Below are positions 1 through 2,305 of a stretch of DNA of 44,700 nucleotides, piece by piece. The translations under genes were made by a program, and so were the position numbers. The stretch lies in NCBI GenBank assembly GCA_913056395.1, contig CAJXMG010000022.1, forward strand, positions 1 through 44,700, given 5' to 3'. The notes under the pieces are model-generated. The model saw nothing but the letters and a program-made list of their open reading frames with translations, did no database searches and was not told where the DNA came from. This DNA comes from an uncultured bacterium. GTDB taxonomy: Bacteria > Planctomycetota > UBA8108 > UBA1146. Within the stretch, counting starts at the first letter, position 1; each line of letters begins with the position of its first letter.

Positions 1-161
1 GTCGGGTTGTCGAGCATGCAGCGAATTTGAATCGAGGACCCGCTCGGAGCGGTCTCAGAGGTGTCAAAATACATGGAGTAGTCTTGGGACCAAGCGATAG
101 AGGCTGGTGCCATAAAGGCGATCAGAGCCAGCGAAATGATCCAGCGTGAAACATTTACCAT
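1..161 (-). CDS. Exported protein, N-terminal fragment (runs off the window)
   Basis: Reading on the minus strand from an ATG at 161, the frame stays open to the window edge and gives about 53 residues. The first 25 or so form a clear signal peptide: a short N-region with one Arg, then a hydrophobic stretch (WIISLALIAFMAP) ending near IAWSQ. The mature part begins DYSMYFDTSETAPSGSS and continues with IQIRCMLDNP. A good Shine-Dalgarno (GCAGGAGATTTC) stands just before the ATG. I have a general memory of planctomycete secreted proteins with this type of N-terminus, but the fragment is too short to name a family. The function is unknown and the C-terminus lies outside the window. Confidence 0.7.
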   Translation of the reverse strand, partial: MVNVSRWIISLALIAFMAPASIAWSQDYSMYFDTSETAPSGSSIQIRCMLDNP

Positions 162-533: not shown

Positions 534-1205
534 ATGAGTTCGGAAATGCCCCAGAACAGCCATAAGAAGCAGAAATCGCGAGTCCATGACGTCGAAGATC
601 TGCGTAACAGGGGAATTCGCAAGGTCCGTGTGGTGGGTGAAAGTCAACTTCAGGAAATGGCTCGAGAGGCGGCTGCCAAAGCGGTTCTTGAGCTGGCGGC
701 AAGCCTGAATCTTTCGGATGAGGCTCGAAAATCTCTCGTGGCTAAGGCTCGAGCGTCAATCCTAAATGGAAGTCCGGGACCCTCTCCCCAAGTGATCGAA
801 AACCCGGTCGTCAAACCGGACGTACGAGTTGTCGATCCCCCCACGGAACGCCCCCCCGCGGTATCCCAGATACGAATTCAGGACCAGGAAGTACTCCAGG
901 AGTTGTCAAAGTTGATCGCCCGCGATTGGAGAACTGAATTGGCGACAGTTCAGGACTCTCATAGGGCGCAAGTCGAGAGGCTAGAAATGCGAATAGAGGA
1001 ACTGACAAAAGCCCTTCGGGTGACCGATCAGGTCTTGACCCGGGACCGAACACAGGAAGGCCCAGGCGGATCTGCTCAAAGTCCGTTTGACCACAAGAAA
1101 GAAGAACTACTCGATCAGTTGTTCCAGGCCAACGTCGCCTTGAGGGAGATTTCCTCAGGAGAGATGGGTGGACAGCAGTCAGAAGGTGAAGGAAGGCAGT
1201 CATGA
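534..1205 (+). CDS. Coiled-coil protein, candidate partner of the MamK-like actin
   Basis: This 223-residue soluble protein has no signal peptide or membrane segment. It has a basic N-terminus (1-34) followed by an Ala/Glu-rich helical part (about 35-78, with the motif RKVRVVGESQLQEMARE at its start). A Pro-rich linker (81-110) leads to a probable coiled coil (117-168, repeating Leu/Ile with Glu/Arg, for example VERLEMRIEELTKALRV). A short C-terminal amphipathic helix (186-206) and a Gln/Gly/Glu tail complete it. The start has AAAGG spaced before ATG. Its TGA overlaps the ATG of the actin gene (ATGA), so the two are almost certainly co-translated. I recognise no family. By position it could nucleate, anchor or link the filament, as MamJ does for MamK, but there is no visible MamJ similarity. 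That role is inference. Confidence 0.8.
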   Translation: MSSEMPQNSHKKQKSRVHDVEDLRNRGIRKVRVVGESQLQEMAREAAAKAVLELAASLNLSDEARKSLVAKARASILNGSPGPSPQVIENPVVKPDVRVVDPPTERPPAVSQIRIQDQEVLQELSKLIARDWRTELATVQDSHRAQVERLEMRIEELTKALRVTDQVLTRDRTQEGPGGSAQSPFDHKKEELLDQLFQANVALREISSGEMGGQQSEGEGRQS

Positions 1206-2305
1206 ATATGGATCTCAACAAAAACACCCAATCAGAAAGTGATATTCAGGCTGCGAACCTGAATGCCAGCACTGTAGCGGTCAAAGTCGGGATCGACCTC
1301 GGGACCAGCCGCAGTGCAGTTTGTTCTTCAAAGGGAGAACGTTTGGTCATGGCGAGTGTGGTCGGTTGGCCGAAAGACGCTATTTCTGCCAAAGTTTTTG
1401 GTCGCAAAGTGCTCGTCGGCGATGCCGTTCTCGAGAATCGACTGGCCCTGAAAACCTGTTTTCCATTGAAAGATGGAAATCTCGCCTTCACCCAGACCAA
1501 TGGTGACGATCAGGAGACTTTCCGCAAAGCGGGCCTGCACTTGTTCACCGCCCTGCGTCAGGCAGCGAATCCCGGTCCTAATCAGCCGGTTCATGCGGTC
1601 ATCGGTGCTCCTGCTGAAGCGACTCGAGAAAACAAGCAGGCTATTATCGACCTTGCAAATGAAGCCGGTATTGACGGCGTCATGGTTGTATCAGAGCCCT
1701 TTGCCGTTGCTTATGCACTCGATGCATTAGAGGACGCCATGGTGGTCGACATCGGTGCTGGAACCATCGATCTGTGTCGTATGGCCGGAAGTTTACCTGG
1801 CGTTGAAGATCAGGTGACGGTTTTCCATGCCGGGAATCATGTGGACGCCCGTATCTGCGAACTGCTACGTGAGCAGAGACCGGAAGTACAGTTCACCCCT
1901 AACATGATCAAACAGGCCAAGGAGAGATTCAGCAGCGTGGTCGACACTCACAAGCGTGCACTGGTTCAATTCCCGATCGATGGCCGCCCCACTGAAGTGG
2001 ACATCACCGATCAGATTTCTGCTGCAGTTGGTGAGCTGGTGCCCCATATCACGGAAGGCATCCAGAAGTTGGTCTCGACATTCGACCCCGAATTCCAGCA
2101 CAGGATTCGCAACCGGGTCATCGTCAGCGGCGGCGGATCTCAGGTGTACGGCCTCCAAGAGGCGCTTGAAAAAGGTCTTGAGGAGTTGGGTGGCGGTCAC
2201 GTTGTGATCGTCGACGACGCCGTCTATGCCGGAGCTCAGGGTGCGCTGAAACTGGCACAAGAAATGCCCGAAGAGTACTGGCAACAGTTGAGTAAAAACT
2301 CCTGA
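1202..2305 (+). CDS. MamK-like actin family filament protein
   Basis: This 367-residue protein has the actin/Hsp70 ATPase fold. Phosphate-1 loop is GIDLGTSRSAV (30-40), SEPFAVAYALD (164-174) carries the Glu expected for hydrolysis, phosphate-2 is VDIGAGTIDLC (182-192) and the adenosine loop is IVSGGGSQVYGL (307-318). Several segments closely match MamK as I remember it: VVGWPKD, PGVEDQVTVFHAGN, VYAGAQGALKLAQE and the C-terminal EEYWQQL. These favour MamK over MreB, ParM or FtsA. MamK assembles cytoplasmic filaments that organise magnetosomes; MamK-like proteins also occur outside magnetosome clusters. The start is an ATG overlapping the upstream stop, with GGAAGG before it. The first 27 residues are a polar extension. 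No other mam or mad gene lies in the window, so the cargo is unknown. A strong terminator follows directly. Confidence 0.85.
   Translation: MNMDLNKNTQSESDIQAANLNASTVAVKVGIDLGTSRSAVCSSKGERLVMASVVGWPKDAISAKVFGRKVLVGDAVLENRLALKTCFPLKDGNLAFTQTNGDDQETFRKAGLHLFTALRQAANPGPNQPVHAVIGAPAEATRENKQAIIDLANEAGIDGVMVVSEPFAVAYALDALEDAMVVDIGAGTIDLCRMAGSLPGVEDQVTVFHAGNHVDARICELLREQRPEVQFTPNMIKQAKERFSSVVDTHKRALVQFPIDGRPTEVDITDQISAAVGELVPHITEGIQKLVSTFDPEFQHRIRNRVIVSGGGSQVYGLQEALEKGLEELGGGHVVIVDDAVYAGAQGALKLAQEMPEEYWQQLSKNS

Follow-up and report, generated by a model that had tools for sequence, protein, structure and literature searches.

At one end of the window, by which we mean the whole 44,700-nucleotide stretch of DNA analysed (contig C22 of the 2.77-Mb, 95%-complete genome of a marine planctomycete), lie two overlapping genes. 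As a preliminary description of this DNA had it, the reading frames at 534-1205 (223 amino acids) and 1202-2305 (367 amino acids) share an ATGA stop/start overlap, at 1202-1205, that suggests translational coupling. The second gene encodes an actin-like ATPase and the first a coiled-coil protein, here called the partner; the features of the pair are as follows.

1..77, no strand: edge of the contig; the same 77 bases end contig C10, which has mreB-mreC-pbp2-rodA
534..1205, + strand: partner gene, encoding a 223-residue coiled-coil protein, with homologues just 5' of the actin gene in those family members that were inspected
591..695, + strand: module in the N-terminal part of the partner (residues 20-54), VEDLRNRGIRKVRVVGESQLQEMAREAAAKAVLEL, which recurs in other planctomycete partners
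924..1028, + strand: coiled coil predicted at about residues 131-165 of the partner, ...RAQVERLEMRIEELTKALRVTDQ..., from the partner alignment and a long helix in models of homologues
1107..1145, + strand: short C-terminal motif of the partner, LLDQLFQANVALR, residues 192-204, a proposed filament-docking motif (from conservation and locus enrichment)
1202..1205, + strand: ATGA overlap of the stop of the partner gene and the start of the actin gene, the putative point of translational coupling
1202..1279, + strand: N-terminal extension of the actin, 26 residues ahead of the core, from alignment
1202..2305, + strand: gene for the MamK-class actin-like ATPase, 367 residues
2328..2365, + strand: stable hairpin 3' of the actin gene, a possible terminator with an imperfect T tract

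The strong terminator first described after the actin gene survives in part: the stretch at 2328-2365 does form a stable hairpin (-35 kcal/mol, folding z -3.6) followed by TCTATCTTTTC, but a terminator scan has no entry there on the + strand.

The first 77 bases of the window match the last 77 of contig C10 exactly, and both contigs map contiguously on L143 and L144, which makes them neighbours in the genome. The local order is mreB, mreC, a small gene of MreD size with no Pfam match, pbp2, rodA, a gene of the 469-amino-acid type on the other strand, the partner, and the actin; the genome's own MreB is a separate protein, encoded on contig C10. The same order next to the elongasome genes is found in other members of the family, and not around MamK genes elsewhere.

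Class and distribution of the actin

The actin is of the MamK class, an already known kind. It scores 384.2 bits (4.5e-115) against the NCBIfam MamK model (NF040964), short of the curated cut-off of 400, and it likewise remains below the cut-offs of the BeeR model (NF053558; 177.5 bits, cut-off 530) and of two MreB models (87.2 and 67.1 bits, cut-offs 293 and 366); Pfam MreB_Mbl gives 88 bits. The best PDB chains are those of MamK from AMB-1 (5ljw and 5jyg), with E about 1e-80 over residues 29-364. The resemblance extends beyond the ATPase motifs, as had been noticed from the sequence at the outset: VVGWPKD aligns with VVGYPKD, PGVEDQVT with PGPEDQVT, and YWQQL with YWRQL in the PDB MamK, while the ATPase motifs themselves do not vary across an alignment that includes MamK and the planctomycete relatives. 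The actin is thus like the Magnetospirillum AMB-1 protein (PDB 5ljw, 5ljv, 5jyg) in whole-length homology, in its ATPase motifs, and in about 42% identity, but differs in lying outside a magnetosome cluster, in scoring 384 bits against a threshold of 400, in its N-terminal extension, and in belonging to a separate deep clade. BeeR, a tubular actin of Verrucomicrobiota (PDB 8r2n, PMC11929497), is also MamK-related, occurs in non-magnetotactic hosts and carries an N-terminal extension, but the window actin has 177 bits against the BeeR cut-off of 530, and 384 bits to MamK.

Phylogenetic placement was examined in a quick tree of 92 rows, which included MreB and divergent actins, and in a careful tree of 43 rows. 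The actin does not fall inside MreB: the quick tree splits the MamK-like set that contains it from MreB with support 100, and from the divergent actins as well, and the careful tree gives the split from the divergent actins support 100/100. In the 43-row tree the actins of the window family form a deep clade of their own (support 100/99), beside, yet outside, two magnetosome-containing MamK clades along a backbone that this tree does not resolve, and outside the clade of second-copy actins described below. The first magnetosome-containing clade consists of Desulfamplus and Nitrospirota, and the second of Omnitrophota and the planctomycete MAG_11118_pl_115, which has been reported to be magnetotactic (PMC7449369). 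When a single clade of all magnetosome MamKs was put to an AU test, the result was p 1e-4, from which we draw no conclusion because L194 and L154 were entered as non-magnetic, a status that is assumed rather than known. A separate and more divergent actin clade is present in the same phylum (L136-L141), its members being some 25-34% identical to the actin of the window.

A two-gene operon of an actin and a small partner also recalls the ParM/ParR systems that segregate plasmids or other DNA, and there are weak Pfam scores to ParM and Alp7A. A role of this kind is very unlikely here, as the pair occupies a fixed chromosomal site across the family, the partner has no recognised DNA-binding domain, and the actin is of the MamK class and not the ParM class.

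The window actin is present in all 16 of the sampled genomes of its family, and 15 of the 16 have a second MamK-like gene with 42-47% identity. The uncultured Planctomycetota MAGs MCMED-G47, SW42618_bin_2 and H12BWP_bin.25 are named relatives at 81-95% identity. In the phylum as sampled, a MamK-class match at E 1e-50 is found in 116 of 294 genomes (~40%), with 72 passing the curated cut-off, and none of 14 control genomes has such a match. The second actin of the genome studied here (G000:C2:121175-122179; L002, L035) is 43% identical to the first and scores 400.1 bits against the NCBIfam MamK model, over the curated cut-off of 400. It has an upstream partner of its own, a 422-residue reading frame with LLADLVSENRQLR; a PilZ-like N-terminus guessed by eye for this protein finds no support in Pfam. 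On the other strand, genes for a secretin and for a CHAT-domain protein are among the neighbours of this second locus, which, like the elongasome genes, lies outside the window.

The window had been described as free of magnetosome genes, and this is borne out for the markers searched genome-wide: in the 95%-complete genome, MamE and MamB searches return only protease and CDF matches below the cut-offs, just as control genomes do, and there is no match to the magnetochrome domain. One of two readings originally offered was that the two genes are all that is left of a magnetosome cluster, for which one may cite the MamK class of the actin and the presence of magnetosome clusters in some Planctomycetota (PMC7449369). 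We regard this as hardly credible, because the pair's actin is found throughout the family, the three markers have no match over cut-off, the family clade is deep and outside both magnetosome-containing MamK clades, and MamK-class genes recur across the phylum in the numbers given above. Homologues of MamK that occur apart from other Mam proteins have been described before (PMC7449369). The other reading, a filament and anchor module with a function other than in magnetosomes, is favoured by the conservation and the phylogeny, as well as by a motif shared among the partners.

A motif shared by genes upstream of MamK-class actins

The partner has no family match in Pfam or NCBIfam, in keeping with the earlier failure to place it, and within the family its gene immediately precedes that of the actin, often with a 4-base overlap; conservation of the partner gene extends beyond the family too. 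Within the family, identity to the window partner is 0.93 over the 13 residues LLDQLFQANVALR near the C-terminus, a motif that the preliminary description does not mention, and 0.43 for the rest of the protein. The core of this predicted short helix is LLxx[IL][FV]xxNxxL[RKQ], within a wider consensus [KR][KR]xxLLxx[IL][FV]xxNxxL[RKQ]. We define a motif-bearing MamK partner as the product of a gene directly upstream of a MamK-class actin that contains LLxx[IL][FV]xxNxxL, and the window partner is one, having the motif at residues 192-204. In a full-length alignment more than 90% of motif-bearing partners have the N, which the search pattern itself requires. A profile of the partner tail gives clear matches in its own genome only at the two MamK-adjacent genes (E 1e-25 and 4e-5; the next is 0.03). 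For the N-terminal module, a small HMM made from nine hand-picked segments matches 78 of 150 partner rows in a redundant set and none of the reversed sequences. The partners of L123-L132 and L207 have long C-terminal tails past the motif, with repeated DD[ML]PWE and PPPLER-type segments.

The motif is present in the upstream gene at 73 of 100 planctomycete loci, compared with 0.7 expected from shuffled reading frames, a figure that is optimistic taken alone because the pattern was drawn from those loci. Among named genomes it is found in the gene directly upstream at 70 of 76 readable MamK-family loci, against 18 of 578 other reading frames of the same stretches, a background in which some evident second copies are counted. 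With the pattern fixed on Planctomycetota, 12 of 13 out-of-sample loci from other phyla match in the scan of named genomes: those of Omnitrophota (L172, L190, L204), Desulfamplus (L187, L197, L202, L213), Nitrospirae (L206, L214), a member of the Zetaproteobacteria (L215), Desulfobulbaceae (L218) and Hydrogenedentes (L154), the sole miss being L169. The L197 locus, which has the motif upstream of mamK, belongs to a bona fide magnetosome cluster that includes genes for MamN and MamB/MamM-like CDF proteins; magnetosome status is shown for this locus, and the remaining contigs from other phyla were checked for mam genes in part. Motif-like matches in MamN-type proteins (L187, L197, L202, L213) coincide with an apparent transmembrane stretch, and we take them as chance. 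Some 6-7 kb downstream of the MamK-class actin gene, a further motif protein is encoded in L166 (15010-16305), L171 (14878-15912), L208 (15713-16450) and L216 (15704-16429); those of L166 and L208, the two scanned with Pfam, both have a GGDEF domain.

The proteins that carry the motif are otherwise unlike each other, and what they have in common is adjacency to a MamK-class actin. In the window partner and most others the motif is at the C-terminus of a coiled coil, and 13 of 69 motif partners have a degenerate GGDEF domain by Pfam, with no intact GGDEF signature in any of the partners. Some proteins have tandem copies joined by glycine-rich linkers, three in L027 (GGGLLAGLVRENQALR-type) and two each in L056 and L058/L177. 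At L218 (6797-7987, Desulfobulbaceae B4-01) the protein upstream of the MamK-class actin has AILKGVYDENLRID at its N-terminus, followed by an apparently transmembrane hydrophobic segment and by an N-acetylmuramoyl-L-alanine amidase domain. The tandem copies, and the membrane amidase with the motif at its N-terminus, argue for a portable docking motif, and the sequences suggest a general tag that may attach proteins to MamK-family filaments.

An alternative is that the motif is a helix for self-assembly, or for contact with some third party, inherited together with the coiled-coil domain and having no part in actin binding. Most carriers do share a coiled coil just ahead of the motif, and AlphaFold predicts the helix about equally well without the actin (pLDDT 83 in the tail-plus-actin read-through chain of L158, a planctomycete relative, and 79 for the tail alone), values that speak neither for nor against docking; the actin part of that model has the MamK filament subunit as its best Foldseek match (TM 0.95). 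However, the motif recurs without a preceding coil in the glycine-linked tandems, in a 128-residue protein of L021 and at the amidase N-terminus, and MamK-class adjacency is common to the carriers, such that this alternative seems quite improbable.

A putative filament adaptor

We consider it probable that the operon encodes a MamK-type filament with a motif-docked adaptor, organising something other than magnetosomes. The actin would polymerise in an ATP-dependent manner into a MamK-type filament, and the coupled coiled-coil protein would be its dedicated adaptor, docking on the filament through the C-terminal amphipathic helix LLxx[IL]FxxNxxLR. The coiled coil would render the adaptor oligomeric, leaving the N-terminal module to hold a cargo or a partner in the membrane or envelope, presumably in a system that does not serve magnetosomes.

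The position beside mreB-mreC-pbp2-rodA raises the tentative idea that in this lineage the operon serves to place, or to provide a scaffold for, some of the machinery of the envelope or of growth. The elongasome genes adjoin the pair in this family, while the genome has its own MreB and the window actin scores 87 bits to MreB; because the arrangement is limited to this family, we treat an envelope-growth role as a lead and not a result, and the adjacency may be simple synteny.

The partner could instead be an assembly factor, with the motif binding monomers or filament ends so as to nucleate, sever or control turnover. WH2 elements of eukaryotic actin-binding proteins are short amphipathic helices with the pattern LLxxI...L[KR], single or in tandem in unrelated carriers, and the hydrophobic spacing of the partner motif is close to theirs; the tandem motifs of L027, L056 and L058/L177 similarly recall tandem WH2 nucleators. 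The likeness is one of analogy only, since the spacing in the partner motif is one residue longer and a near-invariant N stands in place of G, and homology is not indicated. MamJ and LimJ regulate MamK dynamics in AMB-1, according to work cited in PMC12748827. Nevertheless, the diversity of carrier domains, including GGDEF and a membrane amidase, looks more like recruitment, and we think an assembly factor unlikely.

Other proteins that work with MamK-class actins offer partial parallels to the proposed docked adaptor. MamJ and LimJ of magnetospirilla either connect magnetosomes with the MamK filament or act as its regulators (PMC11628618, PMC12748827), and MamJ is apparently missing outside that group (PMC10653835). 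The Mad20/23/25/26 network, with MamK and Mad28 in RS-1 (PMC12748827), likewise consists of coiled-coil proteins, but the planctomycete partner shares only the coil and the motif. Clusters of the Desulfamplus type have a motif gene directly upstream of mamK. A literature search that excluded most subscription journals and preprints found no description of a short MamK-binding motif, or of a partner for planctomycete MamK-like actins, and the motif shared by the upstream genes appears to be new in the literature searched.

A broader proposal is that a single ancestral, short filament-binding motif, a bacterial counterpart of WH2, is common to the MamK-family actins of several phyla (Planctomycetota, Omnitrophota, Nitrospirota, Desulfobacterota and Hydrogenedentota at the least) and is borne on unrelated adaptors, with the positioning of magnetosomes as one use; we hold the case for and against this to be about evenly balanced. 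If it is true, magnetosome chains would be a specialised form of a more widespread actin scaffold in bacteria. A conserved docking motif would provide a testable adaptor principle for the MamK family, would predict partners of MamK in those magnetic bacteria where MamJ is missing, and would serve as a handle for finding proteins attached to MamK-type filaments.

A comparison of actins with and without an adjoining motif gene may also provide clues to the surface involved. In one planctomycete clade, f27 (L098, L102, L115-L117, L121, L122) together with L198, L220 and L221, the MamK-class actin is not adjoined by a motif gene, which counts against the docked-adaptor reading, and the columns that differ in these actins cluster at window residues 55-61 (VVGWPKD) and 80-89. 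These two segments may be a lead to the motif-binding site, although the changes may represent one evolutionary event.
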